IMG/VR virus record: IMGVR_UViG_3300006052_000025
Coordinates: 1 to 28,375 of that record
Strand: one strand, 5' to 3'
From: a virus
DNA length: 28,375 bases
The stretch's first letter is position 1, and every line of letters begins with the position of its first letter. This document shows positions 1 through 25,119 of the stretch, piece after piece. The notes under the pieces were generated by a model. That model was given only the letters and a program-made list of their open reading frames with translations, searched no databases and had not been told where the DNA came from. The position numbers were made by a program, and so were the translations under genes.

Positions 1-1242
1 CTAAAGGATTGCATGATGTGGTTAGAGGATATTGCTGAATGGAAAGTTTCAGAGAGCACACTCTATATTAACTTTGATGATATACGCTCTGAATGGCTGT
101 TTCTTCCTCTCGACGAACCGAGTGACGAACGTAGATTATTATCGACACAGTTAACGGGGGCATGGATAAATGAGTTTACTGAAGTCAATGTACATTTGAT
201 CGACCCACTAGGAGGTAGGTGCGGGAGATTTCCAAGAGGTAGATTCGGTGTACCAACGTGGATGGGAATAATAGGAGATTCAAATTTTCCCACGGAACAC
301 TCAGATTGGCATGAATTTTTGGAGAACGCCCCAAACCAGTTCGAAGTGTTTAAACAACCCGGCGGGCGCTCTCCTACTGCCGAGAACATACCGCACCTGA
401 ACCAGAACGCTGAAAGTATACTCCTGCCGGAGGACGACCCTGTACGCTTACAACGTGGGAGGGAGTATTATAATCGTGCTGCACAAACCAAGAATCAAGA
501 TTGGGTCCGTCGATATGTGGATGCTGAGTATGGGCGCGACCCCTCTGGTACTGCTGTGTTTGCTAATACTTTTGTGCGTAGGTATCACTGCGTTCCTAAT
601 TTGGAACCCGTATCTAATAAAATGCTTATAGTAGGTCAGGACTTTGGTCGGTCGCCATGGTCGCTTATTTGTCAAGTTGACCACCGTGGTCGCTTACTTG
701 TGTTTGAAGAGGCACCTGCCGAGGACACGGGTATAGTGTTACATGTCAAAAGTACTTTACGCCCGATGTTGCTCAACCCATTGTATATAGGGAAGAGTGT
801 TGTGGTCATAGGTGACCCGAGTGGTGAGTATAAGAACGACCAGTTTGAAGTAAACAACTTTAAAGTATTAAACCAATTGGGATTTAAATATGCATATCCT
901 GCTCCTACTAATGACATTGAGTTGCGTATACAAGCTGTTGAGCATTGGCTTGGTCTATCTATTGACGGTGGACCTGGCATACTTATAAGTGAGCTTGGGT
1001 GCCCTAACTTGATCGCAGCGTTGAATGGTGGGTATAGATATTCTAAAACTAAAGATGGGCAGTCTAAACCTAAGCCAGATAAGAATGAGAGTTCGCACGT
1101 AGCTGACGCGCTTGAGTGTGTATGTCTTATGGCTAGAAATTCAAGCGCATATAATTGGGTGGAGAACACCACTCGGTCAGAGATAAGGAGGCGGGAAGCA
1201 CTAGAGAGACGCGGGCGTATGCCTGCGAGGGCGTGGACGTGA
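1..1242 (+). CDS. terL: Terminase large subunit, 5'-truncated by window
   Basis: This is the ATP-driven DNA-packaging motor and headful/cos nuclease, acting at the portal vertex. The frame is open from base 1, so the N-terminal ATPase part lies outside; residue numbers count from the first ATG at 13. The segment GAWINEF (E54) fits the Walker B/catalytic-glutamate region of terminase ATPases. The RNase H-like nuclease domain follows: IVGQDFGR (D210), VVIGDPSG (D268) and SHVADALE (D365) give the expected three acidic metal-binding residues in the right order. The C-terminus is Arg-rich. The start seen at 13 is probably internal. The next gene is not a structural gene but a secreted PEP-CTERM protein after a 118-nt gap. 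The family call rests on these motifs and on the downstream portal and capsid genes. Confidence 0.93.
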   Translation, partial: LKDCMMWLEDIAEWKVSESTLYINFDDIRSEWLFLPLDEPSDERRLLSTQLTGAWINEFTEVNVHLIDPLGGRCGRFPRGRFGVPTWMGIIGDSNFPTEHSDWHEFLENAPNQFEVFKQPGGRSPTAENIPHLNQNAESILLPEDDPVRLQRGREYYNRAAQTKNQDWVRRYVDAEYGRDPSGTAVFANTFVRRYHCVPNLEPVSNKMLIVGQDFGRSPWSLICQVDHRGRLLVFEEAPAEDTGIVLHVKSTLRPMLLNPLYIGKSVVVIGDPSGEYKNDQFEVNNFKVLNQLGFKYAYPAPTNDIELRIQAVEHWLGLSIDGGPGILISELGCPNLIAALNGGYRYSKTKDGQSKPKPDKNESSHVADALECVCLMARNSSAYNWVENTTRSEIRRREALERRGRMPARAWT

Positions 1243-1360: not shown

Positions 1361-2059
1361 ATGAGAAAGCTTTTACTTGCTACAACTTTACTTGCTGCTA
1401 TCGGGGTGACTCCTGCCTTGGCTGCCGACTCCGCTATCAGTATTTGGAACACAGCAAATCCGGGTGGCATTGAGACTGCAACTGGCATTGGACAGGCGAG
1501 TGTTCTATCGTCTAACCTTAGTGGCATTACAGTGTCAGTTAGTTCGGTTTTGCGTGGAACTGGACCCGACCAGTTGACTGAGGCCAATATCAACATTGAT
1601 AACACTGATAGCACTACACAAACGTTGCGGATCATCGCTGGTGCAAATGGGTTCGCTGGTCCGTCTGATGCGTTCAATCTGACGGGTGCTATTGGTGTCA
1701 CGCTTGGTGGTGCCGACTTGGTGGGTGCATACTTTGTTGACGGGACCAATACACTTAATGGTCAGGGGTTGACCGTTACAGGAACCAACATTGGTAACTT
1801 CGACTCTGGCTTACTGAGTGGCCCGCAGTCGTTCTCGTTTAACGGCATTGGTGCTGACCTTGTAAACACTCCTTACGGGCTAGCAGAGGAGTTGACTCTG
1901 ACACTTGCACCGGGGGCGGCAGTGTTTATTCAGGGTGTGTCAATGGATGCAACTACTGCGATCCCTGAGCTTTCTACGTGGGTTTATACTTTAGCGGGCT
2001 TTGGTTTGCTAGGGGTTGTTGGCTTGAGGCGTAAATCGTCCGCACGGTTTGCGCTTTAA
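1361..2059 (+). CDS. Secreted PEP-CTERM domain protein 1
   Basis: Predicted exported surface protein, 232 aa. The N-terminus is a classical Sec signal peptide: MRK, a hydrophobic Leu/Ala core, then PALA, with cleavage near residue 21-22. The C-terminus carries the tripartite exosortase sorting signal: IPELSTW (residues 201-207), a hydrophobic stretch of about 15 residues and an Arg/Lys cluster (LRRKSS). The consensus third residue (PEP) is Leu here, so sorting efficiency is uncertain. The middle is Gly/Thr/Asn/Asp-rich and beta-like, with no recognised enzyme domain. In bacteria such proteins are cleaved by exosortase and are linked to exopolysaccharide or surface anchoring; no exosortase is in this window, so host EpsH/XrtA would be needed. 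The SD is weak (GAGGG about 10 nt upstream). Function in the phage is unknown: host-surface modification, superinfection exclusion or a decoration protein are possible. Confidence 0.85.
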   Translation: MRKLLLATTLLAAIGVTPALAADSAISIWNTANPGGIETATGIGQASVLSSNLSGITVSVSSVLRGTGPDQLTEANINIDNTDSTTQTLRIIAGANGFAGPSDAFNLTGAIGVTLGGADLVGAYFVDGTNTLNGQGLTVTGTNIGNFDSGLLSGPQSFSFNGIGADLVNTPYGLAEELTLTLAPGAAVFIQGVSMDATTAIPELSTWVYTLAGFGLLGVVGLRRKSSARFAL

Positions 2060-2077
2060 AGCATGTGCGTAAGGGGT

Positions 2078-2152
2078 GTGTGGTGCGACGTGTTATCCAC
2101 ACTTAAAGGGACACTCACGGACTACAAAACGGAGCCCGCCCCTTTCTTTTTT
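2078..2152 (+). terminator. Possible terminator after PEP-CTERM gene 1
   Basis: A GTGTGG/CCACAC hairpin (2078-2083 with 2097-2102) is followed by AAAGGG (2105-2110), which can pair with CCCTTT (2140-2145) just before a T-rich run (2147-2152). The second loop is long (about 29 nt), so intrinsic termination is only plausible. The 113-nt gap 2060-2172 holds nothing else I can name. Confidence 0.35.
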
Positions 2153-2172
2153 CTCTAACGGGGACTACCCAA

Positions 2173-2982
2173 ATGAAAAAGTTACTACTTACTACTACAC
2201 TCACTATGTTAGTGACGGCTCCTGTGTTCGCACAGTCAATTCCTGATCCGCTGCACGGCTGCTATACTACTGGTTGCACTGGCTTCGGTGCAGTAACTAT
2301 TGCCAATCCGGCATCTGGTGGGCTATCGAATTGGGGCTTCACATCGTCACCGGGAGCGCAATCAGGACAACTTTATGTTGAGCTTCTCGTGCCGGATAAT
2401 GAGGGTGAGGCTGTCTTTCCGACATTAACTGGAAAGTATAACGGCAATCCGATGACAATCGGTGCATGGGTTAACGTTGGTTTATTTACGCCGGGAAGTG
2501 ACTTAACTACAGTTGTTGGTTTGAGTGCGTCACCAAAGAACCCTTACGATGCTTATGCACCTGATACGCATACGCTTGATCCATCATTCGTTGCTGGAAC
2601 AGATTTTTATACTGTCTATCAAGCTATTGTGACAGCCCCGGACCCTATGGCATTACTTGGTGGTGGACAGTCATCGACGTTAAATGACGTGTTCTCGTTC
2701 ACTGGTGGTGACTATACTCTTGGAACTAACGAGTTCACTGGTATTGGTCCGGGTGCGATCATCACGGCGTTTCTCGACACAAGCGTTACGGGTGGTACTG
2801 ATAACGGTATATTCTCAACAGCGCAGTCATCATCGCTAATTCTTGACGTGCCGGGGGTAGTAGTCAATCCACTTCAACCGGGCGTACCAGAACCATCAAC
2901 TTGGGTAATGGGACTATTAGGCTTTGGTTTCCTTTCGTGGGTAGGGCGCTCCTACGCTCGCCCGCGTAACATCGCAGTGTAA
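2173..2982 (+). CDS. Secreted PEP-CTERM domain protein 2
   Basis: Predicted exported, exosortase-processed protein of 269 aa. The signal peptide is MKK, a hydrophobic core, then APVFA with cleavage after about residue 20. The C-terminal sorting signal is canonical: VPEPSTW (residues 238-244), a short hydrophobic helix (VMGLLGFGFLSWVG) and a basic tail (RSYARPR). The body is rich in Gly, Thr, Pro and Asp with two early Cys (CYTTGC) and no catalytic motif I recognise. Its signal peptide resembles that of gene 1, but the bodies are not obviously alike. A copy of the dispersed palindrome lies inside the signal-peptide codons (2201-2215). SD is poor (GGGGA about 9 nt before ATG). A phage-borne pair of exosortase substrates is unusual; role unknown. 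Confidence 0.88.
   Translation: MKKLLLTTTLTMLVTAPVFAQSIPDPLHGCYTTGCTGFGAVTIANPASGGLSNWGFTSSPGAQSGQLYVELLVPDNEGEAVFPTLTGKYNGNPMTIGAWVNVGLFTPGSDLTTVVGLSASPKNPYDAYAPDTHTLDPSFVAGTDFYTVYQAIVTAPDPMALLGGGQSSTLNDVFSFTGGDYTLGTNEFTGIGPGAIITAFLDTSVTGGTDNGIFSTAQSSSLILDVPGVVVNPLQPGVPEPSTWVMGLLGFGFLSWVGRSYARPRNIAV
2201..2215. repeat. Dispersed palindrome copy 2 (N3 spacer)
   Basis: TCACTA-TGT-TAGTGA, both half-sites perfect but with a 3-bp centre. It lies 28 bp into PEP-CTERM gene 2, within signal-peptide codons. Confidence 0.7.
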
Positions 2983-3040
2983 GCCCCACCAAACTGCGAT
3001 GGGGGCTGGACTAGGGGTTTCCCCTCCCTAGTTCGGCCCC
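2970..3040 (+). terminator. Tandem strong hairpins after PEP-CTERM gene 2
   Basis: Two adjacent structures. CATCGCAGT (2970-2978) pairs perfectly with ACTGCGATG (2993-3001) across the stop codon. ACTAGGG (3010-3016) pairs with CCCTAGT (3026-3032), flanked by GGGGC (3002-3006) and GCCCC (3036-3040). There is no U-run, so this may be a factor-dependent terminator, an attenuator or an mRNA 3'-end stabiliser. An AAAGGAG ribosome-binding site follows directly. Confidence 0.5.
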
Positions 3041-3703: not shown

Positions 3704-4243
3704 ATGAACCGTGATGACTTTATAAATGTTATACGTCGTCTCATAGTAGAAGCACGCCGTGCTGAGTTAGCGGGTAAGATTGATGATGCTCGCGAGGCCG
3801 CAGGATATGACGATGTAGGTGACTTTGTTAATAGTCTCTTTAACGTCACTAAAGATAGTAGTAAACCAAAACTTAATGTTGTGCCGCCTAAGAAACGCGT
3901 TCCTTTGGGTCCACTTCTAGAAGAGGGTTGGGAATGGGGACATAAAGGTGCTTTTGATCATCGTGATGACCCTCAAAAATTTATAGAGTTTTGTTCGCCA
4001 TACAGTTCTAAACGGAATAAATATCTTGATGAGATGAGTGAGCATCAAAGTAATATGATTGAAATGATACATGAAGATGTTTCGAGAGCTAAAGCGAGAG
4101 TTAAAAAGAAAATAAGTAAAGCAACCGTAGAAGAAGCAATGCGTGCATCGGATGAAATTGATAGTGTAGTGAGTACTATTGAGGATGCATTGCATGATGC
4201 TGTAAGGAAGAAGTCTCGTGAAACAGGTGAAGATTCCGCTTAG
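3704..4243 (+). CDS. Hypothetical helical protein, 179 aa
   Basis: Not recognised. The product is highly charged and mainly helical: an N-terminal Arg/Glu-rich helix (residues about 1-30), a middle segment with PPKKRVPLGPLLEEGWEWG, and a long C-terminal helix rich in Lys, Glu and Ala (about 100-175) suggestive of oligomerisation or nucleic-acid contact. SD GGGAG lies just upstream (spacer about 6). It lies 1 bp after the previous gene and overlaps the next by 26 nt. Position just upstream of the putative small terminase suggests a packaging or early assembly role, but that is inference. Confidence 0.75.
   Translation: MNRDDFINVIRRLIVEARRAELAGKIDDAREAAGYDDVGDFVNSLFNVTKDSSKPKLNVVPPKKRVPLGPLLEEGWEWGHKGAFDHRDDPQKFIEFCSPYSSKRNKYLDEMSEHQSNMIEMIHEDVSRAKARVKKKISKATVEEAMRASDEIDSVVSTIEDALHDAVRKKSRETGEDSA
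3846..3861. repeat. Weak dispersed palindrome copy
   Basis: TCACTA-AAGA-TAGTAG, perfect left half and two mismatches on the right. It is in the same reading frame as the other coding copies (V-T-K-D-S-S), so it may be a decayed site. Confidence 0.3.
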
Positions 4244-4769
4244 TGATGAGCAGGTAAAACTCTTTCATGCGCTTGCACAAGAGATTGTGCAGGCGTATCA
4301 AACGAAAGAGAACATACTTAAGTCACTAAGTATAACAGAAGAGGGTTATGAGTTAATATCTCAAAATCCTACGTTTCAACGTATACTTCGCCAGTTAATG
4401 GTGGAGTGGAATGGGGCAACTAATACTTCTAAACGTGTTAAAATCAAATCTCAGTGGGCAGTAGAAGAAGGTATACCTTATATGTTTCAATCAATGACTG
4501 ACATGAATGAGCCGTTAAGTGCTCGCGTGGAAGCATTCAAGGCTATGTCTAAGATAGGTCAATTGGATACGCACGATCAAATACATAGTGCTGATAGGAG
4601 TTTTAGACTTGAAATTAACATAGGTGCTGGTATGCCAACAGTCACTATCAATAGTGAGAAAATTATTGAACATGAACCTACAACGAGTGAATGGGACGTG
4701 GACAAGGAAGATAATTACACCGTTGGGCGCTTTGTCCCTGCCGATCCACCCACTTTTGGACATAAATGA
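4218..4769 (+). CDS. Candidate terminase small subunit, 183 aa
   Basis: The product is mainly helical in its first 120 residues: an N-terminal LSDEQVKLFHALAQEIVQAY helix, then a segment resembling a small DNA-binding helical unit (ILKSLSITEEGYELISQNP) and a second helical block (IPYMFQSMTDM through KAMSKIGQLD). The tail (about 120-183) is beta/acidic. Size, helical make-up and a position between terL and portal fit a terminase small subunit or DNA-recognition protein, but no diagnostic motif is certain. The start is GTG at 4218 with AAGGAAG 9-10 nt upstream; no in-frame ATG is nearby. It overlaps the preceding gene by 26 nt. A promoter-like stretch follows it. Confidence 0.72.
   Translation: MKQVKIPLSDEQVKLFHALAQEIVQAYQTKENILKSLSITEEGYELISQNPTFQRILRQLMVEWNGATNTSKRVKIKSQWAVEEGIPYMFQSMTDMNEPLSARVEAFKAMSKIGQLDTHDQIHSADRSFRLEINIGAGMPTVTINSEKIIEHEPTTSEWDVDKEDNYTVGRFVPADPPTFGHK
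4642..4657. repeat. Dispersed palindrome copy 4
   Basis: TCACTA-TCAA-TAGTGA, perfect arms, inside the small-terminase candidate, coding V-T-I-N-S-E. Confidence 0.85.
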
Positions 4770-4832: not shown

Positions 4833-4873
4833 ACCAGTATGCGGCACCACTAAAAATCTTGAAACGGTGGCTA

Positions 4874-7219
4874 ATGCCGCCTCTGGTGCCATTCAGAGTA
4901 GTTGGTACAAACGAGACTGCTGCTCAATATGATGCGGCTGCCGCTCAACGCGGTTCTACTTATTCCCCTAATAGAACTCCAGACTTAACCGGGCTATCTG
5001 GTTATATTTGGGATCAGTGGATGATAATGCGGAGACACCGTGATACGGCGTCCTCTGGGTGGTCTTATCGTCTCTTACGTGCGCTACGCGCGTTTAATGG
5101 TGAGTATGAACCAGAACAAATTCTAGCTATTAAAAGATTTGGTGGGTCAGAAGTTTATGCTAGATTGTTGGCAATGAAATGTAGAGGTACAACCAGTTTA
5201 TTACGTGATGTATATTTAGGTCCAGAGCGGCCTTGGAGTTTAGAGCCAGATGATGACCCACCTATTCCAGATGAGGTTATACAGTCTATTCAAACTCTAG
5301 TTCATTCAGAACTACAAGAGTCTACCCAAGCTCACTATCAATCTCTTATGCAAACTGCCGCGCACTATCATGCGGTATCACAGGCACATGTATATGGGCA
5401 ACAAACTGGACAAACGGCACAGCAAGTCCAAGCTTCACTGCCGCCAGAGCCTCCACCCCCTCCGCCAATACCTGATGCAAATGCTATTAGAGATAGAATA
5501 CTCGGTCTTGAGGAAGCCGCAAGAGAGGCAGCTAAAAAGAAATGCGCCCAACAAACTCAAATAGCAGAAGATAAGATACAAGAGATATTAAGTGAAGGTG
5601 GATTTTTTACTGCTTTTGCTGAGTTCTTAGTTGATTTACCTTTATTTCCTTATGCAGTTATTAAAGGTCCAGTTGTTAGAATAAAAACATCGGTAGAGTG
5701 GATACAAACTCCTAGTCCATCTCCTCCCGTTTTAAGTAGATCGCCACCTAATCCAAATTCTCCTGATTTTCAACAACAAAATACTACGGGCGCTCCCGGT
5801 CAAACTGCGCCAAGGGTTGGTGGTCCTAAACAAGCTGTAGTTACAAACAAACCAATACTTTGTTGGGAACGTGTTTCACCATTTGATATTTATTGGACCC
5901 CAGGTGTATCGGATATAGCAAATGCTAATGTCATTGAGCGTATGCGTCTTACCCGTGCAGAACTCAATGATTTACTTGATATGCCTGGCTTTAACCAAGA
6001 TGAGGTACGCGCCGTTCTTGATGAATACGGGTCAGGTGGCTTGGTTGACACATGGGACCAAACAGACCAACCCCGAGCTATATTGGAGAGTAGGGAAGAC
6101 CCTCGCTTTAATCAATCAGGTATGATTAATTGTTTGCAGTTCCAAGGTAATGTACAAGGTAGGCATTTACTTGATATAGGATTTGATCCGAGACAGATTA
6201 CAGATAAATCTAGAGATTTTCATGTTCAGTCTTGGTTAATTGGTACGCACGTTATTAAGTCGCAGTTGACACCTTCACCTAGAAAGCGCCATCAGTATTA
6301 TGTTACATCACTTGAGAAAGTTCCCGGTACTCCAGTTGGAAACGGTTTGCCTGATATTCTTACTGATATTACCACTGTTACTAATGCTACTCTTCGTGCT
6401 TTGGTTAATAATTTATCAATCGCTTCTGGCCCACAGGTAATTGTTAATGATGATAGATTGTCAGATGGGGAAGATGGAGAAGATTTATATCCGTGGAAGC
6501 GATGGCATGTTAAATCTGATCCATTTGGCAATAATACCGAGCCTGCGATATCATTCTTTAATCCCGCTTCTAACGCTCAGGAATTGCTTGCTGTATACCA
6601 AGCCTTCTCCCAGATAGCAGATGAGATAAGCGCTATACCCAAATTTATGACCGGCACACCATCTGCTGGTATCGGGCGCACAGCGTCCGGTCTTAGTATG
6701 TTAATGCAGAACTCTGCAAAGATACTCCAAACTATTTGTTCTAATATTGATCGTGATATCATATCTGAAATCCTAGAAGGGCTTTTTGATATGATTATGA
6801 TGTTTGATAAATCGGGTATACTTACAGGTGATGAGAAAGCTAGAGTTCTTGGAGTTGCTACCGCTATACAGCGTGAGACTGAACGCTCTCGACAGCTTGA
6901 GTTCTTGCAACTTACAGCTAATCCAATTGATATGCAAATCATTGGACCGAAGGGAAGAGCACAAGTACTACGGTCTGTGGCGCAGAAAATTGGTTTACCG
7001 GGAGAAGATATCGTACCATCGGATGAAGCACTTGAAGCTCAACAGAAGGCTGCTGCTGCCGTGGCAGCACAGCAAGGTCTTCCCGGTCATCAACAACAGC
7101 CGTCGGAACAACCACAGCCGGGGGCACAAGCACAGGGTCAACAAGCTGGTCCAGTAGCTAACGGGCAACAGGGACCAATGACCGCAAATGTTGGGGCTGT
7201 TGCAGGAGGTGTCGGATGA
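4874..7219 (+). CDS. Portal (head-tail connector) protein
   Basis: The dodecameric portal forms the DNA channel at one capsid vertex and docks the terminase. The product is about 781 aa from ATG 4874 (786 from an in-frame TTG at 4859; neither start has a strong SD, so the start is uncertain). Length matches large podoviral portals. Recognisable portal features: N-terminal helical region (WSYRLLRALRAFNGEY), a central crown/wing segment with DPRQITDKSRDFHVQSW, then TTVTNATLRALVNNLSIASG at about residue 497 and the stretch FMTGTPSAGIGRTASGLSML at about 592, followed by helices (IDRDIISEILEGLFDMI) typical of stem and tunnel. Two Pro-rich inserts (about 195 and 285) and a Gln/Gly/Pro-rich C-terminus are low-complexity. 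Its stop overlaps the next start (ATGA). Confidence 0.9.
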   Translation: MPPLVPFRVVGTNETAAQYDAAAAQRGSTYSPNRTPDLTGLSGYIWDQWMIMRRHRDTASSGWSYRLLRALRAFNGEYEPEQILAIKRFGGSEVYARLLAMKCRGTTSLLRDVYLGPERPWSLEPDDDPPIPDEVIQSIQTLVHSELQESTQAHYQSLMQTAAHYHAVSQAHVYGQQTGQTAQQVQASLPPEPPPPPPIPDANAIRDRILGLEEAAREAAKKKCAQQTQIAEDKIQEILSEGGFFTAFAEFLVDLPLFPYAVIKGPVVRIKTSVEWIQTPSPSPPVLSRSPPNPNSPDFQQQNTTGAPGQTAPRVGGPKQAVVTNKPILCWERVSPFDIYWTPGVSDIANANVIERMRLTRAELNDLLDMPGFNQDEVRAVLDEYGSGGLVDTWDQTDQPRAILESREDPRFNQSGMINCLQFQGNVQGRHLLDIGFDPRQITDKSRDFHVQSWLIGTHVIKSQLTPSPRKRHQYYVTSLEKVPGTPVGNGLPDILTDITTVTNATLRALVNNLSIASGPQVIVNDDRLSDGEDGEDLYPWKRWHVKSDPFGNNTEPAISFFNPASNAQELLAVYQAFSQIADEISAIPKFMTGTPSAGIGRTASGLSMLMQNSAKILQTICSNIDRDIISEILEGLFDMIMMFDKSGILTGDEKARVLGVATAIQRETERSRQLEFLQLTANPIDMQIIGPKGRAQVLRSVAQKIGLPGEDIVPSDEALEAQQKAAAAVAAQQGLPGHQQQPSEQPQPGAQAQGQQAGPVANGQQGPMTANVGAVAGGVG

Positions 7220-7566
7220 ACCTCACTATCGTTAGTGACTTGAAGCGACTTTGTTTTGTTCTGTTGATGTTAGGTGCTTTTTGCGCCGATACTGCAATGG
7301 CAGCAGTTGCAACAACTAAACTAACATTGAATGTTACAACATGGACCGATCTTGGTGCAGGACCGCTGATGCTAGGATATGGTGGGCACGGGAATGTAGT
7401 TTATGCTATTGGTGATGTAACACCTACCATTCCGATCAAAGAGGGGTTTGTGTTTCCAACAACTGGTGGCCCTAAATGTATTAACACAGCTTCGCATGTG
7501 TGGGCAATGGCAGCAGTTCCTTATCCAACATGGGTATATGTTTCACCAATTGTTGGTTGTCAGTAA
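7216..7566 (+). CDS. Small secreted virion-like protein, 116 aa
   Basis: Residues 1-30 look like a signal peptide: charged DLKR (8-11), hydrophobic core LCFVLLMLGAFC, and AMAA near 27-30 as a cleavage site. The mature part (about 86 aa) has the pattern TTWTDLGAGPLMLGYGGHGNV, then IGDVTPT, EGFVF and SHVWAMAA, which I associate with small beta-sandwich phage virion proteins of the 'W-x-D-L-G-x-G-P ... V-W-A' type. Such proteins are normally cytoplasmic, so a signal peptide is odd. It starts by ATGA overlap with portal and a dispersed palindrome overlaps codons 3-8. Could be a decoration protein that has gained export, or a periplasmic protein. Confidence 0.75.
   Translation: MNLTIVSDLKRLCFVLLMLGAFCADTAMAAVATTKLTLNVTTWTDLGAGPLMLGYGGHGNVVYAIGDVTPTIPIKEGFVFPTTGGPKCINTASHVWAMAAVPYPTWVYVSPIVGCQ
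7223..7238. repeat. Dispersed palindrome copy 5
   Basis: TCACTA-TCGT-TAGTGA, perfect arms, starting 7 bp after the ATG of the secreted protein gene (codes L-T-I-V-S-D), where it could affect translation initiation. Confidence 0.85.
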
Positions 7567-12641: not shown

Positions 12642-13073
12642 GTGGCCCAGTTATACAATACCGTCACTGCCTATGTTGTTTCGGCTAGAAACCGAATGCA
12701 GGATAGGGTTTCTCCTTATCGGTATACTGATGATCAGATTGTTGATGCTTTAAATGTTGCATTAGAAGAAACACAACGGATACGACCTGATATATTTTTA
12801 GATTTAAAGTATCAACAGAAAATACAACCTAATGACTTAGATGATGGTTTTATATCTAATTACTATGCTAGCTCTGATATTGCTTTTGACACTAGTAATA
12901 ATTATGATCCTTCCAATGGTCCATTAGTTCCGATACCATCAAAATATAATGATCCTATACTATGGTATATGGGGGCTCACTTGCAGTTCTTGGATGTTGA
13001 TGATACACAAGATCAGAGGGGTGTAGCATTTCTAACTAAGTTCTCACAACGTATGTTACAGGCGCAATCATGA
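12642..13073 (+). CDS. Head-tail adaptor protein, 143 aa
   Basis: Likely the ring that joins portal to tail. The N-terminal helical pattern YVVSARNRMQD, YRYTDDQIVDALNVALEET and RIRPDIFLDL is like phage adaptor proteins that follow the coat gene. The C-terminal half (IPSKYNDPILWYMGAHLQF then DTQDQRGVAFLTKFSQRML) also fits. The start is GTG at 12642; an upstream SD is weak, and copy 8 of the palindrome ends 3 bp before it. The stop overlaps the homing endonuclease start (ATGA). Confidence 0.75.
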   Translation: MAQLYNTVTAYVVSARNRMQDRVSPYRYTDDQIVDALNVALEETQRIRPDIFLDLKYQQKIQPNDLDDGFISNYYASSDIAFDTSNNYDPSNGPLVPIPSKYNDPILWYMGAHLQFLDVDDTQDQRGVAFLTKFSQRMLQAQS

Positions 13074-13438
13074 ATAAAGAAACAGAACTAGCTTGGTGTG
13101 CAGGTTTTTTCGATGGAGAAGGAAATATTGGATGTTTTCATCATCGTAAAGGAACTGTAGAGTTAACATTACAAATAAGCCAAAAAGATAGACGGATATT
13201 AGATCGTTTTAGATGGTTCATGAAAAATAATGGATTTTATAGTTCGGAAATTGCTGTTCGTGGTCCATATTTTAGTAGCCATAAAAATGGTATTTATAAG
13301 TTAGTCATAATCAATAGTAATGCATTTAGAGTTTTTGAAGCTATGAAATCTTATTTGGGTGAAGTTAAATTGGAACAAGGAGAATTAGCTATTAATAAGT
13401 GGAAAGAAAATCGTGGATATTTAAAGGTGGTAACGTAA
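13070..13438 (+). CDS. LAGLIDADG homing endonuclease, free-standing
   Basis: A 122-aa single-motif protein. Residues about 7-18 (LAWCAGFFDGEG) match the LAGLIDADG helix, with the acidic residues D15/E17 placed to bind metal. The rest fits the family: LTLQISQKDRRILDRF, VRGPYFSSHKNGIYKLVI, and an Asn/Lys-rich end. Single-motif members act as homodimers and cut a long target, spreading their gene. It lies between two structural genes with ATGA overlap at its start and no spacer at its end (TAA then ATG), so it is translated within the late operon rather than from its own promoter. No intron or intein signs are seen. Confidence 0.9.
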   Translation: MNKETELAWCAGFFDGEGNIGCFHHRKGTVELTLQISQKDRRILDRFRWFMKNNGFYSSEIAVRGPYFSSHKNGIYKLVIINSNAFRVFEAMKSYLGEVKLEQGELAINKWKENRGYLKVVT

Positions 13439-15032: not shown

Positions 15033-15999
15033 TCGTGTTCAAACTATACGATATTATACTACTTTACAGCGACCTCCTACAACTGAGTTCTCAGGAGAAG
15101 TTTATATTAATTTTGCTGATTTACAAATTGGGGCATTAGATTTATCTCATTCTCCAGTTGATTTTGTTGCGGTAAGATATTACTCACAGATAGCATCATA
15201 TGTTGCAGGTGACTTTGCTATTTATAATGGATCTTTATATTGCTGTCTTGAAAATGGTACAACAGGAGCATTTGATCCTACTAAATGGTCCTTATTTATA
15301 GACTTGCAAGAAATTAATGTATTAATAGCAATAGAGACAGCAGCTAGACAAGCTGCCGATCAAGTTTTACAAAATGAAATCAATACAGAGATAACTAATA
15401 GAATAGCTGGTGATACAAATTTACAAAATGAAATTAATGCTTTAAATACTGCTCTTGCTAATGTGTTTCCTACAGGTTTATCTTTGGAGTATTATGGGGT
15501 TAGTGCTCCTTCCGGTTGGTTACTTGAAGATGGTTCAATATACAATATATCCGCGTTTCCAGCATTAGGTGCTTTTTTAAGTAATAGGTTTGGTGGTGAT
15601 GGTACAACAACGTTTGCAGTTCCTAACTCTTTAGGTCGTTTTGGTGTTGCTACTAGTTCTAGTTTTCCACTTGGGGCTATGGGCGGTGCTACTACTGCTA
15701 CATTAAATTCAACCAATTTACCAAGCCATACCCATACTATTCAACCTCATACGCATACTGAACAACCGCATACTCATCAGTTTTCATCAAATACTATTGG
15801 TATGTCATCTACTGTTAGTTCTATTGGTTTTGCTGCTGGTGTAAATGCGCCCCCGGCTGTTAGTCTAAGTGCTGATATAAAGTCTGCAACGGCTATTATT
15901 AATTCTAGCACAACATTAACAACTGACCCAACTGGGACTAGTGTTCCATTTAATATTCTTCCGCCATATATATCTCGGACGAGGATAATAAAGACATGA
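15025..15999 (+). CDS. Tail collar-type fibre protein, 324 aa
   Basis: Starts at GTG 15025 with GGAGGG about 8 nt upstream. Residues about 50-90 (YVAGDFAIYNGSLYCCLENG then FDPTKW) resemble a carbohydrate-binding type 5/12-like module. About 95-150 is a coiled-coil trimer stalk (IAIETAARQAADQVLQNEIN). About 155-235 is a phage tail collar domain: PSGWLLEDGS, then FPALGAFL, GDGTTTFAVPN and LGRFGV. A His-rich stretch follows with three HTH triads at about 232-252, which in related fibres coordinate metal. The C-terminus PFNILPPYISRTRIIKT is the usual collar ending. Receptor-binding fibre tip or its carrier. Confidence 0.85.
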   Translation: MVNRVQTIRYYTTLQRPPTTEFSGEVYINFADLQIGALDLSHSPVDFVAVRYYSQIASYVAGDFAIYNGSLYCCLENGTTGAFDPTKWSLFIDLQEINVLIAIETAARQAADQVLQNEINTEITNRIAGDTNLQNEINALNTALANVFPTGLSLEYYGVSAPSGWLLEDGSIYNISAFPALGAFLSNRFGGDGTTTFAVPNSLGRFGVATSSSFPLGAMGGATTATLNSTNLPSHTHTIQPHTHTEQPHTHQFSSNTIGMSSTVSSIGFAAGVNAPPAVSLSADIKSATAIINSSTTLTTDPTGTSVPFNILPPYISRTRIIKT

Positions 16000-18056
16000 C
16001 TGTTAACTATCTTCTTCCTGCTGGCACAATAAACAATCGTACTGCATATTTTTATGCAGATAGCACAAAACAGTTTGGCCCCATAATTAAGAAAATTACA
16101 GACCAAGTTTTAGTTATTTTAGATTTTACTACTATTTTGGCTGGGCATGTTATTCATACATATAATTTCACTTCTGATGTTGAAACTAATCCACCATTAT
16201 TTTTAACTGATCCTTTATTAAACGCAACTGGTACTGTGCTTTCATTTCTTATATCCGGTGGTATTGATGGACAACAATATAATATCACAATAGCAACTGA
16301 GAATGTTGGCTCAACAATTCCACGGTATGATATATTAACAATTAACATACCGTCAAAGTCTGCATGCGATACATCTATACCTCCAGTAGTTAGTTTATTA
16401 CTTGGGAGTATATTTCTTAATACTAATATTAGATATTTTTGGGGTCCAAACCCACCAACTGGTCAACATGTATTAGATCAATGGTTTGATACTAATACTA
16501 ATATATTATATGAATGGGCAACAGATGGGATTAATTATTTTTGGGAAGAGATCAGCGCTGGTAATGTCACTACACTTAGTGATGCACCATCTGATGGCGT
16601 TCTTTATAGTCGTAGAAATGCTGATTGGATAGCTGATCCAATTCAAATTGATGCTACTTCTGATGGTAAGATATATGTTCGTAATAATGCTGGTTGGATA
16701 CCTGATCCAATTCAAATTGATGCTCCCGCTGATGGTCAAGTTTGGGGACGAAAGAATGATCAATGGGCAATAGTTACTGGTGGAACAGGTGGTATTGGAG
16801 ACGCGCCATCCGATGGAAATACTTATGGACGTAAAAATTCAACTTGGGTAACTGTTACAGGTGGTGGATCAGTAACGATTAGTGATACTCCACCCGTTTC
16901 TCCTGCAATTGGGAATTTGTGGTATGATAGTATTGGTGGTCAGATGTACGTCTGGTATAATGATGGTACATCATCGCAATGGGTAGTTGTAATTAATAGA
17001 CCGGGACCAACTGGTCCTCAAGGTTTACCTGGAATACCGGGACCGCCCGGCAATGATAGTATAGTACCTGGTCCTCCCGGTCCATCTTATATATTACCAA
17101 TTGCTACGACAACTGTGCTTGGTGGTGTAAAGCCTGATGGAACTACTATAACTGTTGATGGTACAGGAAAAATTTCAGGAGCTTCTACTTATTCATTACC
17201 GCAAGCATCGACTACGGTGCTTGGTGGTGTCAAGGTAGATGGGACCACGATCACTATAAATAGTGGGACCGGGGTCATTTCAGGGGCAGGTGGTGGAGCA
17301 AGTATAACTGTAGCAGATACACCACCGACATTAACTAATGGAGCGATGTGGTTTGATACTGTTGGAACACAGTTATACATTGGTTACAATGATGGTACAT
17401 CAACTCAGTGGGTGCAAGCAAATAATCTTGCATTAGGTCTTCCAGCAGGTACACCAACTTATGCTGCACCCCCACTTGCCGCGAGTTGGACGCGTCAGGG
17501 ATGGGCCGGTGCCGTCACTCTTGCTGATGTTTCAAATGGGCTTTTATTTAATAATCCTAATACTTATGGTGGTGCAGTTTATAATTTAACTGGTGTGAGT
17601 ATTGTTGCTCCTGTCGCTCCTTATACTATTGATGCTCGTATTCGTTCAACATTTCCGTGGTCGAATGCTGCGGGCGTAGGCATTGGCTGGACCGATGGGA
17701 CCAAGTGTCAAGGGATCTTCGGCGGTTACTCTACGACTGCCAATCCTATCGCTGGCCCTTGCTATAGAGTATCTACATTTTCAGCATTTGCTAATAGTAC
17801 CTATGTTGCAGATCAATTTTTATTTAATATGTTAGTAGCAACACTTGTTTGGTTACGTATTCGTGATGATGGAACTAATGTAACTTTCTGGTTTTCGCAC
17901 GATGGGATCAATTTTATTCAGGCGTATACTGTAGCGAAAGCATCTGGGTATCTTGGTGCAAGTGGCTATTCAAATGTCGCGCTTGCGATGCTCTCCGGGC
18001 AAGCAGTAGCGGCTCCTGGTGTTACAGAACTACTTGAGAGTTGGTGGGTTCACTGA
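15996..18056 (+). CDS. Modular tail fibre with collagen-like stretch, 686 aa
   Basis: A trimeric receptor-binding fibre. Order: N-terminal domain (1-185) paralogous to the 285-aa upstream protein; four DAP-x-DG repeats (about 196-288); a DTPP...LWYD...YNDGTSSQWV module; a short collagen-like Gly-X-Y run (GPTGPQGLPGIPGPPG, about 336-365); two LPxAxTTVLGGVK repeats; another DTPP/YNDG/QWV module; and a C-terminal beta domain (about 490-686) ending SWWVH. That last domain is repeated in the next two genes. Collagen and repeat modules give length, and the C-terminal domain is probably the receptor tip. Joined to the next gene by TGATG. Confidence 0.85.
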   Translation: MTVNYLLPAGTINNRTAYFYADSTKQFGPIIKKITDQVLVILDFTTILAGHVIHTYNFTSDVETNPPLFLTDPLLNATGTVLSFLISGGIDGQQYNITIATENVGSTIPRYDILTINIPSKSACDTSIPPVVSLLLGSIFLNTNIRYFWGPNPPTGQHVLDQWFDTNTNILYEWATDGINYFWEEISAGNVTTLSDAPSDGVLYSRRNADWIADPIQIDATSDGKIYVRNNAGWIPDPIQIDAPADGQVWGRKNDQWAIVTGGTGGIGDAPSDGNTYGRKNSTWVTVTGGGSVTISDTPPVSPAIGNLWYDSIGGQMYVWYNDGTSSQWVVVINRPGPTGPQGLPGIPGPPGNDSIVPGPPGPSYILPIATTTVLGGVKPDGTTITVDGTGKISGASTYSLPQASTTVLGGVKVDGTTITINSGTGVISGAGGGASITVADTPPTLTNGAMWFDTVGTQLYIGYNDGTSTQWVQANNLALGLPAGTPTYAAPPLAASWTRQGWAGAVTLADVSNGLLFNNPNTYGGAVYNLTGVSIVAPVAPYTIDARIRSTFPWSNAAGVGIGWTDGTKCQGIFGGYSTTANPIAGPCYRVSTFSAFANSTYVADQFLFNMLVATLVWLRIRDDGTNVTFWFSHDGINFIQAYTVAKASGYLGASGYSNVALAMLSGQAVAAPGVTELLESWWVH
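16567..16582. repeat. Dispersed palindrome copy 10
   Basis: TCACTA-CACT-TAGTGA, perfect arms, immediately before the repeat block of the fibre gene; codes V-T-T-L-S-D. Confidence 0.85.
16581..16862 (+). repeat. Four DAP-x-DG repeats in fibre gene
   Basis: Units begin at 16581, 16650, 16719 and 16800, each D-A-[PT]-[SA]-D-G, then x-x-[YW]-x-R-x-N-x-x-W. The first two units are exactly 69 nt; TGATCCAATTCAAATTGATG and the next 2 bases are identical at 16634 and 16703. This points to recent slippage or recombination. Confidence 0.8.
17251..17266. repeat. Dispersed palindrome copy 11
   Basis: TCACTA-TAAA-TAGTGG, one outer mismatch, inside the fibre; codes I-T-I-N-S-G. Confidence 0.65.
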
Positions 18057-18910
18057 TGTTCGATTTCCCGAACTCCCCCACGGTTAACCAGCAAGTCACT
18101 GCTGCCAATGGTATCGTTTACCAATGGGATGGGGTCAAGTGGAATTCACTTGCAGGTGGTTCAGCTATTGCAATTGGTTCTGTGCCGCCTTCTAGTCCGG
18201 TTACTGGTCAACTTTGGTGGGATAATATTGGGGGGCAGTTGTATATTTATTACAATGATGGAAATTCTTCTCAATGGGTTCCTGCAACTGGCATTCCAAC
18301 AAGTAATCTATCGCCAATACTGGTTTCACCTCCTTCCGCTGCAAGCTGGACGCAGCGTAACTTCAACGCTGGTGTAACGACGCTGACCGATGTGGCGAAT
18401 GGCGTGGCGCTCTATACGTCGTGCGCGACAGGCACAGTTACTAATGTTCTTCGGGCAGCAACTATAGCCGTTCCGGCGGCGCCATACGTTATTGATATGA
18501 ACTTGGCAGGGACTGCATTGTTGGCAGGATCGGCCAATTACGTCAAGATGGGAGCCCTATGGTCGGATGGAACTAAGGCGCAGGTCCTCTCAATCGTAGA
18601 CATCGCAGTGGCGGCTAACTTCGATGTGGAGACGTACTCGGCCCTATCGACTTATGCCGCGCTTGTTGCCACCTTCTATGCTCGGTTTAACCCACAATCT
18701 TTATGGATGAGGCTAGCCGATAATGGGACTAACGTAACCTTCTCTGTCGGTCCTGATGGCGTCTCATGGCTTCCGGTCTACACAATTGCGAAAGCGAGCG
18801 GCTATCTTGGCGCAGGCGGGTACTCCAACGTTGGTTTCTTCATAAATGAGCAAGTGATGGGCAACGGTGGTCTGGGAACCATAACCCTTCAATCGTGGCG
18901 GGTTCACTGA
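18056..18910 (+). CDS. Tail fibre tip paralogue 1, 284 aa
   Basis: Start ATG 18056 overlaps the previous stop as TGATG; translation is probably re-initiated, as no SD is evident. Begins FPNSPTVNQ...YQWDGVKW, a small module shared with the next two genes. A PPSSPVTGQLWWD...YNDGNSSQWV module follows (about 45-78). Residues about 88-284 match the end of the 686-aa fibre: [52 protein letters not shown] and the ending SWRVH. Its base composition is mixed, GC-richer from about 18340 on. Likely an alternative or accessory receptor-binding tip. Confidence 0.82.
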   Translation: MFDFPNSPTVNQQVTAANGIVYQWDGVKWNSLAGGSAIAIGSVPPSSPVTGQLWWDNIGGQLYIYYNDGNSSQWVPATGIPTSNLSPILVSPPSAASWTQRNFNAGVTTLTDVANGVALYTSCATGTVTNVLRAATIAVPAAPYVIDMNLAGTALLAGSANYVKMGALWSDGTKAQVLSIVDIAVAANFDVETYSALSTYAALVATFYARFNPQSLWMRLADNGTNVTFSVGPDGVSWLPVYTIAKASGYLGAGGYSNVGFFINEQVMGNGGLGTITLQSWRVH

Positions 18911-19599
18911 TGGCCCTTGACTTTCCTAACTCCCCCGCCCTTGGCGCGACCTACTCTTCCGGTGGTGTATCATGGAAATGGGACGGGACCAAGTGGGCGC
19001 AGTCACTATTGTTAGTGAACCCTCTCATTGTTGCGCCCCCGGTGGCTGCGAACTGGACCCCGCGCAACGGAGCGGCGATCTCCGACGTCGCCAATGGCGT
19101 GCAGATCAGCATGCCCGCCGTGACGTCCAACACCTACTACATGGCGTCGGTGGCAGCGCCAACTGCACCATATACGATAGACGCCGACCTCACGATGAAC
19201 ACTATTCTTCCAACAACCAAGGCCACTGTAGGCGGTGTTGGCTGGACTGACGGCACGAAGGTTGATTACCTTCTCTGCGGTTATGTAGGCAACGGCTCGC
19301 AATGCAATCTTAATCAGCAGAGCTTAGTCAACTTCACAACAATCAATACAGCAGGCACGACGTATTACCCTATTATTGGCATGGGCGACATCTGGCTGCG
19401 TATTGCCGATAACGGGACGAACATCACCATGTCGTTCAGCACCGACGGGATTACTTGGACGCCTGTGTATACGATAGCGAAGGCTTCTGGTTACTTGGGG
19501 TCGAGCGGCTACAGCAACGTGGGCTTCCTCCTGAACCCGGTGTCTGGCGCGGGCAATCCGGCGCACGCCATCACCCTGCGATCATGGCGGGTGCATTGA
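18910..19599 (+). CDS. Tail fibre tip paralogue 2, GC-rich, 229 aa
   Basis: Start ATG 18910 (TGATG with the previous stop). Begins [14 protein letters not shown]...WKWDGTKW, lacks the YNDG/QWV module, then carries the shared tip domain from about residue 38: [45 protein letters not shown] and the ending SWRVH. Codons are much GC-richer than in neighbours (for example 37 of 60 bases at 19081-19140 against 21 of 60 at 20461-20520). Protein similarity to the paralogues is high while synonymous positions differ strongly, which fits acquisition from a GC-richer relative rather than fresh duplication. Confidence 0.82.
19003..19018. repeat. Dispersed palindrome copy 12
   Basis: TCACTA-TTGT-TAGTGA, perfect arms, inside the GC-rich fibre gene and the only N4 coding copy in the other frame (S-L-L-L-V). 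Confidence 0.85.
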
Positions 19600-23777: not shown

Positions 23778-24604
23778 TGCCTAGTACTACATACCCTTCT
23801 GTACCAATACCGCAGAATAATATGGATAGTATATATCAATCCGTTATTACTATGCGACAAACGGTACAGTTGCTTATCGTCAATGCACAGCAAGTGAGTA
23901 ATCAAACTCTTTCACAAGCATCACAAATATTCTCTAAAAAATCAGATCATGCTGATATCTCTAGTACCCTTAATAATAGTTTAACGACGGTAAATAAATC
24001 AATATCAAATATAAATCAATCATTAGTAGCTTTGCAAAATAATGTTGCATCATTACAGGGTCGAATGTCGGCATTAGAAACTCGTATGTCAACAGTAGAA
24101 AGTGATATAGTAGTAATAGAAAATGATATTGTACTTCTAGATGGTCGAGTAGCTGCAATAGAAGCTATGACTACTCATGATGTTAGGGTCCGTACTATAA
24201 GTGCAACACTTAACAATGCAGTAGCTAATGGTGGTGTGTTGCGGTTCGATACTATAGATTTTGATACTGATGGGTTTGCTCCATTAACTACACCATTTGA
24301 TCACATTACAATTCCATCTGGATTAGATGGTATTTATATCTTTACAGGTTGGTCAAGCGGTAGTGGTAATCAATCAACAACACTTGGTATGGGCATTCTT
24401 ATTAATGGTATTCAAAGATTTCCAGTAGCAAACCAATCAATTTCTGGGCCTGGTAGTGTTAATTATATATTGAGTAATGCAGCTATACAGACAATGCGAT
24501 TAGTTGGGGGAGACGTAGTACAATTAGTTAATAATAGTATCTCTGGTGGTCCAAATGTATTTCAAGGTGCAACTATGTCTTTAGTTAGGATTGAAGTACC
24601 ATGA
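23777..24604 (+). CDS. Coiled-coil fibre with C1q-like head, 275 aa
   Basis: Residues 1-135 are a long trimeric-type coiled coil (QTLSQASQIFSKKSD, SNINQSLVALQNNVASLQGR, ETRMSTVESDIVVIENDI). Residues about 140-275 form a jelly-roll head resembling C1q/TNF-like domains: FDTIDFDTDGFAPL, IPSGLDGIYIFTGWSSGSGN, MGILINGIQRF, and DVVQLVNNSISGG. This architecture is common in phage side fibres or tail spikes that bind the host surface. Starts by TAATG and ends by ATGA, so it is co-translated with the nozzle and GNAT genes. Confidence 0.8.
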   Translation: MPSTTYPSVPIPQNNMDSIYQSVITMRQTVQLLIVNAQQVSNQTLSQASQIFSKKSDHADISSTLNNSLTTVNKSISNINQSLVALQNNVASLQGRMSALETRMSTVESDIVVIENDIVLLDGRVAAIEAMTTHDVRVRTISATLNNAVANGGVLRFDTIDFDTDGFAPLTTPFDHITIPSGLDGIYIFTGWSSGSGNQSTTLGMGILINGIQRFPVANQSISGPGSVNYILSNAAIQTMRLVGGDVVQLVNNSISGGPNVFQGATMSLVRIEVP

Positions 24605-25119
24605 TACGTATAAATGACGTTCATGCTATCAATATAATATCGAGAGCGGCACGAGTACAATTTGTTCCGCATATGCATCATTGTATTGCGGAATATAACT
24701 CCCACGATCAATTTGTTGGAGGTGTATTGTTCACGGATTGGAATATGGGTTCTTTACTTCTTCATTTTGCTTTACCACCAAACAAAGGTATGTTGGGTAG
24801 ACAGTTGTTATGGTTGTCATTTCAGTATCCATTTAATCAATTAGGAGCAAAGAAAATAGTTGCTTTAGTGCCAGAGTGGAATATACTTTCTCGCAATTTA
24901 GTTTTAAAGTTTGGGTTTAAAATAGAATACAAAATCGACGATATATTTAATAATCCTGTACCAATAGATAATGGTATGTATATTATGAGTATGAGGCGTG
25001 AGGACTGTAGGTGGTTAAGAATTAAATCACCAAATATAGAATTTGCTCCGCGAGAGCGTGTAAACGAGTTACCAGCAGTAGAACAGTTAACGTTACCGCT
25101 AACGGCAACGGTACACTAG
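24601..25119 (+). CDS. GNAT-family N-acetyltransferase, 172 aa
   Basis: Residues about 60-106 carry GNAT features: NKGMLGRQLLWLSFQYPFNQ (acetyl-CoA loop and helix), GAKKIVALVPEWN, then S-x-x-x-x-x-K-F-GF (SRNLVLKFGFK). Similar short acetyltransferases with 'FNQLGAK' occur among podoviral structural genes. Substrate unknown; candidates are host or virion proteins, or a small molecule. The C-terminal tail after about residue 125 is extra and basic-acidic mixed. Overlaps the preceding fibre gene (ATGA); a palindrome copy begins 2 nt after its stop. Confidence 0.85.
   Translation: MIRINDVHAINIISRAARVQFVPHMHHCIAEYNSHDQFVGGVLFTDWNMGSLLLHFALPPNKGMLGRQLLWLSFQYPFNQLGAKKIVALVPEWNILSRNLVLKFGFKIEYKIDDIFNNPVPIDNGMYIMSMRREDCRWLRIKSPNIEFAPRERVNELPAVEQLTLPLTATVH

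Follow-up and report, generated by a model that had tools for sequence, protein, structure and literature searches.

The gene pair and its surroundings

The analyzed DNA, hereafter called the window, is the IMG/VR virus record IMGVR_UViG_3300006052_000025 with a length of 28,375 bases. Two adjacent genes, PEP1 and PEP2, are located in the slot between the terminase gene terL and the portal gene (Table 1). This position had been proposed in a first-pass annotation and was confirmed by phrog_2 upstream and PF23899/phrog_332 downstream of the pair. The conserved gene between slot and portal is small-terminase-like by its position only.

Table 1. Features of the PEP1-PEP2 locus and its borders in the window.
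Feature	Position	Strand	Description	Evidence
terL	1..1242	+	cut at window start, left slot border	phrog_2 E 8e-12
PEP1 gene	1361..2059	+	232 aa, exported PEP-CTERM protein	ORF, family alignment, AF2 model
PEP1 signal-peptide-like start	1361..1423	+	MRKLLLATTLLAAIGVTPALA	sequence pattern, same across PEP1 family
PEP1 PEP-CTERM tail	1961..2056	+	IPELSTW, helix, basic end	PF07589 match 1961-2035; model helix
Non-coding stretch in PEP1-PEP2 spacer	2073..2144	+	72 bp	blastn, 93% identical to L024:7210-7281
PEP2 gene	2173..2982	+	269 aa, exported PEP-CTERM protein	ORF, PF07589, family clustering
PEP2 signal-peptide-like start	2173..2232	+	MKKLLLTTTLTMLVTAPVFA	sequence pattern
PEP2 PEP-CTERM tail	2884..2979	+	VPEPSTW, helix, basic end	PF07589 match 2884-2949
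Hairpin directly 3' of PEP2	3002..3040	+	16 bp	fold z -2.93
Conserved gene between slot and portal	4218..4769	+	family of unknown function	phrog_36773 E 3e-24
Portal gene	4859..7219	+	SU10-type, right slot border	PF23899 E 3e-12; phrog_332 E 2e-60

Both open reading frames were found to carry the signal peptide and PEP-CTERM signal ascribed to them at first pass. The N-terminal starts are signal-peptide-like (MRKLLLATTLLAAIGVTPALAA and MKKLLLTTTLTMLVTAPVFAQ) and follow a basic-hydrophobic-AxA pattern. At the extreme C-terminus, both proteins show the sequence pattern of a tripartite tail, consisting of IPELSTW in PEP1 or VPEPSTW in PEP2, a hydrophobic helix and a basic end. PEP2 matches PF07589 with 26.4 bits, which is above the cut-off of 20.7, while PEP1 remains below it with 15.6 bits as a protein and 19.7 bits in the six-frame search. 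For the NCBIfam models, PEP2 scored 22.2 bits with NF035944 (cut-off 35) and 13.7 bits with TIGR02595 (cut-off 16), and PEP1 was also below both cut-offs (15.2 bits with NF035944). The PEP1 motif carries a P to L change, and the same PEL variant was found in the loci L150 and L154. In the PEP1-family alignment, the PEP1 tail is homologous to tails that pass the models. The tails of the pair are more than chance matches, since 45 phage homologues align and all body-matched relatives keep the tail (see below). Together with the signal-peptide-like starts, this retention supports the proposed architecture of exosortase substrates.

The hairpin behind PEP2 has a counterpart 3' of the PEP gene of L024 (z -2.32). 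As it has no T-run, a role as terminator is unproven. Five terminator-like matches were found in the window (3.2 expected), none of them directly 3' of PEP1 or PEP2. No promoter excess was found in the window, and the RNA folds of 1243-1360 and 2060-2160 were unremarkable. Among the 25 sigma-54-like matches found, one falls within PEP1 with 2 mismatches and none is located upstream of PEP1 or PEP2, which differs from the bacterial PEP-CTERM system.

Several other genes of the window were recorded. Directly 3' of the portal gene, an ORF of 116 aa (7216-7566) without family match has a signal-peptide-like start (MNLTIVSDLKRLCFVLLMLGAFCADTAMAA) and, judged from its sequence, may encode a third exported protein of the head module. 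A LAGLIDADG homing-endonuclease-like ORF (13070-13438; PF14528, 26.3 bits) lies inside the head module. Three successive tail-fibre-like ORFs (15996-19599) have similar C-terminal modules (DNGTNVTF...), a repeated domain for which no Pfam match was found in two of the three. An acyltransferase-like moron (24601-25119; phrog_4470, E 1e-22) is located among the genes of internal virion proteins.

Related genes in other phages

Searching virus contigs with the PEP1 alignment resulted in 194 matched stretches, of which 82 were confirmed. After removal of 13 contained and 6 duplicate loci, 81 unique loci were obtained, among which near-duplicates (L147/L148) may remain. Some 80 virus loci thus carry PEP-CTERM genes, in several unrelated contexts. 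The first-pass annotation had called such a pair in a phage unusual; this does not hold, as such genes recur across many phage lineages. Among the records of cultured phages (50,697), no match was found for PEP1, PEP2, L127, L162 and L107.

The 81 loci gave 95 proteins that have both a signal peptide and a tail; candidates without a detectable signal peptide were left out. The body families include the PEP1 family with 46 members (PEP1 and 45 homologous phage proteins), a second family with 17 and the PEP2 family with 10, the latter obtained as 7 + 3 by clustering and joined by alignment. Each of the 10 PEP2-family genes, that of the window included, is immediately preceded by a PEP1-family gene in the same orientation. 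L112 represents an eleventh tandem pair with a broken PEP2 frame, so that the tandem was found in 10 virus records besides the window. The PEP2-family gene at L001:5947-6763 has its PEP-CTERM tail in another frame, due to either a frameshift or a sequencing error.

The genomic contexts of the PEP genes vary. In a second terminase/portal lineage (phrog_2, phrog_1216), a PEP gene lies between both genes in 9 of 11 loci, the exceptions being L139 and L157; in 3 of these 9 (L127, L136 and L173) it is oriented against both terminase and portal. In 12 loci, a DNA helicase gene (phrog_62) precedes the start of the PEP gene at a distance of up to about 450 bp, and other contexts include primase, RecT and Erf/exonuclease neighbours. 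In 55 of 98 PEP genes, an unusually stable fold (z < -2) was found within the 90 bases 3' of the stop codon, compared to 10 of 98 within-gene controls, using mononucleotide shuffles. The varied contexts and the stable 3' folds form the pattern of self-contained cargo genes. L161 (4154-9061) contains four PEP-CTERM genes that alternate in strand and lie shortly before a terminase-like ORF; its record has an integrase match and, going by the record number, may be the prophage of an isolate. A host or prophage-edge origin is possible for L161 and L176-L178.

For the analysis of tail retention, body-only alignments were used and the tail was ignored. The 80 loci found comprised 70 distinct relatives with an intact 3' end, after subtraction of 7 duplicates and 3 cut loci. 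The tail was kept in all 70, with PE-x-x-x-W in 67 and PE-x-x-x-L in 3, and always includes hydrophobic helix and basic end; since the body queries were derived from members found by their tails, this count applies to those two subfamilies. The pattern used excludes K, I and F and covered 62 tails; the other eight were read by eye as six PEPKTW, one PEPSIW and one PEPFSL. A motif other than PEPSTW is present in 29 of the 70. A signal-peptide-like start was found in 69 relatives, and the remaining one is cut by the contig end.

In three relatives the tag class differs. The bodies of L271, L273 and L274 are 71-72% identical to that of L259, which has a PEPATW tail, whereas their own tails read PEPFSL, PEPASL or PEPATL. 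L273 and L274 pass the TIGR02595 cut-off, while NF035944 matches neither these two nor L271. Such different tails on related bodies indicate that the tag class can change while the body stays, as would be expected if the tag must fit the enzyme of the host.

The closest relatives of the window, L023 and L024 (terL 89%, portal 90% identical), have this slot occupied by a different PEP1-family gene. Its protein ends in VPETSTWAM and is missed by PF07589. The slot of L024 contains, in this order, the PEP gene, a strong hairpin, the 72-bp stretch shared with the window spacer and a tRNA-Tyr(GTA) gene (L024:7284-7368). The slot behind terL therefore seems to take changing cargo, since a different PEP gene and a tRNA gene are found there. 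A chimeric contig at the pair was rejected, because the slot is filled in L023/L024 and terL, portal and 72-bp spacer match.

The presence of the genes in related phages, raised at first pass as a possible objection to the pair, is mixed. L023/L024 have a PEP1-family gene in the slot. In L025 (portal 85% identical) the slot contains no such gene, but a PEP1-family gene was found elsewhere in the record, as was the case for the record of L035; no PEP gene was found within the locus read for L028, L030, L031 and L032. In L088 (portal 53%), two PEP genes flank terL on its opposite side. PF07589 was positive in 6 of 80 portal-related records (4/50 and 2/30), and L023/L024 were missed; most of the 80 records are short and may end before the slot. 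Rhizobium phage RHph_TM27A (portal 50% identical) gave no PF07589 match.

Exosortase, origin and predicted fold

No exosortase was found with PF09721 in 50 PEP-bearing virus records, nor in 25 records from the portal lineage of the window, among them RHph_TM27A and the window itself, for which the first-pass annotation had already seen none. The two sets share two records, resulting in 73 distinct records. With many of the virus records being fragmentary, the lack of an exosortase or integrase match says little about any one of them. Dependence on a host exosortase, as had been assumed, is supported by this result together with the complete tail retention. Of 19 alphaproteobacterial genomes whose PEP-CTERM tails match, 17 contain an exosortase; the enzyme was also found in 18 of 347 sampled Hyphomicrobiales genomes.

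The PEP1 body model matched none of these 347 genomes. In 385 Alphaproteobacteria genomes, one partial match to a generic PEP-CTERM protein was found (L209, 21.6 bits). As a control, 6 of 6 held-out virus records were matched with E < 1e-69; at most 7-9 candidates were scored per bacterial genome, so that sensitivity was lower there than in the virus control. Among the bacterial-genome matches listed, at least 25 relatives aligned over the tail or the C-terminal part. The median pairwise dN/dS was 0.23 and the maximum 0.56 (273 non-independent pairs with dS < 1.5; the window's own pairs were saturated). The PEP1 body looks like a phage-specific family under purifying selection, given that it is nearly absent from the 347 and 385 sampled bacterial genomes. 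Host gene capture was rejected, as the body model has no convincing match in either set.

The AF2 model of PEP1 (pLDDT 86) predicts a beta-sandwich (residues 24-198) that is flanked by the signal helix and by a tail helix at residues 204-226. Near the top of the Foldseek/VIA-align results were K2-2 tailspike C-domains, CBM4, CBM61, CBM16 and a Bacteroides glycan-binding protein, in a ranking limited to the fold families of the VIA list. The top matches had E of about 1e-5 to 1e-4 and Z of about 8 to 9.2 at best, with 6-12% identity and an rmsd of 2.9-4.2; they include tailspikes and tail fibres, and non-glycan proteins are mixed in. CBM4, CBM61, CBM16 and the K2-2 tailspike C-terminal domain have a beta-sandwich to which the predicted fold of the PEP1 body is similar. 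As the TM-scores are low and the best background Z is quoted as 7-8, the resemblance to glycan-binding folds is a lead only. The PEP1 body, a predicted phage-specific jelly-roll, possibly binds glycans. For PEP2, the model (pLDDT 51.5) gave no readable fold.

Proposed role and alternatives

Sorting of PEP-CTERM proteins by exosortases (EpsH, XrtA) is known from Gram-negative bacteria (Haft 2006; PMC1569441). The bacterial proteins described there consist of signal peptide, PE(P) motif, helix and basic end, with bodies without known homology, and the phage pair is built likewise. In contrast to the bacterial system, the window pair is phage-encoded and without exosortase, and the bodies belong to phage-specific families. 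It also forms a two-gene tandem, whereas hosts usually have single-gene operons. The word 'phage' is absent from the main text of Haft (2006; PMC1569441), and the PEP-CTERM passages of PMC12642866 deal with host genes. No report of phage-borne PEP-CTERM substrates was found in the accessible parts of the open-access literature, with subscription papers mostly outside its coverage. The phages appear to borrow the surface-sorting machinery of the host.

To our knowledge, the function of most PEP-CTERM proteins is unknown. SasX is a prophage-borne LPXTG surface protein of staphylococci that is sorted by a host enzyme. It resembles the pair as a phage-borne surface protein with sorting left to the host, and differs by Gram-positive sortase, cell-wall anchoring, a temperate phage and an unrelated sequence. 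Ltp of TP-J34 and Llp of T5 are superinfection-exclusion lipoproteins of phages. Like PEP1 and PEP2 they are small exported phage proteins on the envelope, where they stop further infection; they are lipid-anchored, compared to the exosortase tag here, and an exclusion role of PEP1 and PEP2 is putative.

PEP1 and PEP2 are very probably substrates of a host exosortase. Both proteins would be exported by Sec and lose the signal peptide. The C-terminal helix would then retain them in the inner membrane with PE(P/L)STW at the periplasmic face, following the model of Haft (2006; PMC1569441). An exosortase of the host, not of the phage, would recognize and cut the tail and place the protein on the surface or in the exopolysaccharide (EPS) layer; this step is suggested because the tail is kept in all relatives and the phage records tested contain no enzyme. 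The mature PEP1 jelly-roll might finally coat surface glycans, so that the infected cell adsorbs no further phage. PEP2 would act as a partner, seen only behind PEP1.

The whole chain, in which host-sorted phage cargo (moron) proteins mask surface glycans and lead to superinfection exclusion, is proposed tentatively and could about as well fail as hold. Sorting by the host exosortase is well supported; the exclusion function we infer. The chain is considered the best explanation because of the architecture, the tail retention, the missing phage exosortase and the exosortase in most tail-matching genomes, and because of the phage-specific body, purifying selection and recurrence in several contexts and as a tandem pair. 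The resemblance of the jelly-roll to carbohydrate-binding modules and tailspike C-domains is a further reason. In the portal lineage of the window, 14 of 15 records lack an integrase match, which favours a role in lytic infection and, with it, receptor masking against further phages as the best fit for the window. Counting against the chain are the PEP1 tail below the Pfam cut-off with its P to L change, the exosortase in so few of the sampled Hyphomicrobiales, the modest fold similarity in relation to background, and several close relatives without the genes in the slot; the adsorption block is also a matter of inference.

The main rival keeps the same sorting and assigns the pair to EPS or biofilm remodelling, by which EPS around infected or lysogenic cells would be kept or loosened and aggregation, release and spread altered. 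It takes this rank because host PEP-CTERM proteins, according to PMC12188702 and PMC9012009, hold and stabilize EPS at the cell surface and support flocs and biofilm. The flocculation-associated PepA (NF033554) is a PEP-CTERM surface protein like PEP1 and PEP2, and its model weakly matches L273 and L274 (29.3 and 46.5 bits, far below the cut-off of 80), whereas the window proteins gave no match at E up to 1. Integrase matches, which were found in 10 of the 35 PEP-bearing records from other lineages (2 below cut-off), speak for remodelling; their scarcity in the window's lineage and the missing PepA match of the window proteins speak against it. For the window, remodelling is considered rather unlikely.

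Envelope proteins that exclude other phages are known, and the helix by itself would anchor a protein. The tail could thus be a mere inner-membrane anchor for a periplasmic protein that stops DNA injection by a second phage, without any exosortase. PE and W would be superfluous for such an anchor, yet PE is kept in 70/70 relatives and W in 67 (L in 3), and three relatives switched the tag class instead of losing the tag, which makes this reading improbable. Virion or decoration proteins with host-like tails would fit the packaging and head gene neighbours and the tailspikes and tail fibres among the fold matches; signal peptide and membrane tail would remove the protein from cytoplasmic assembly, however, and many relatives adjoin helicase, primase or recombination genes, so we regard this as very improbable. 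The close likeness to tails of alphaproteobacterial genomes among the matches listed could point to an artefact or recent host capture without phage role (a chimeric contig or passengers); this is equally far-fetched in view of the filled slot of L023/L024 with matching terL and spacer, the phage-specific body and the purifying selection.

Beyond the window, host-exosortase sorting of phage proteins might extend to a large phage-specific class of exosortase-dependent surface lectins, a suggestion made with somewhat less confidence than the chain itself. Lytic and temperate phages that infect exosortase-bearing bacteria would give the infected cell a glycan-binding coat of their own by means of the host exosortase, blocking competitors or aiding release, with the tag class switched to match the host enzyme and the body kept, as in L271/L273/L274 compared to L259. 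Phages with substrates and no sorting enzyme offer a clean test, as selection on the phage acts on the substrate while the host controls the enzyme. If the host exosortase does process these proteins, exosortase status would bear on the infection or exclusion of many soil phages. Surface sorting would then be added to the host functions that phages borrow.
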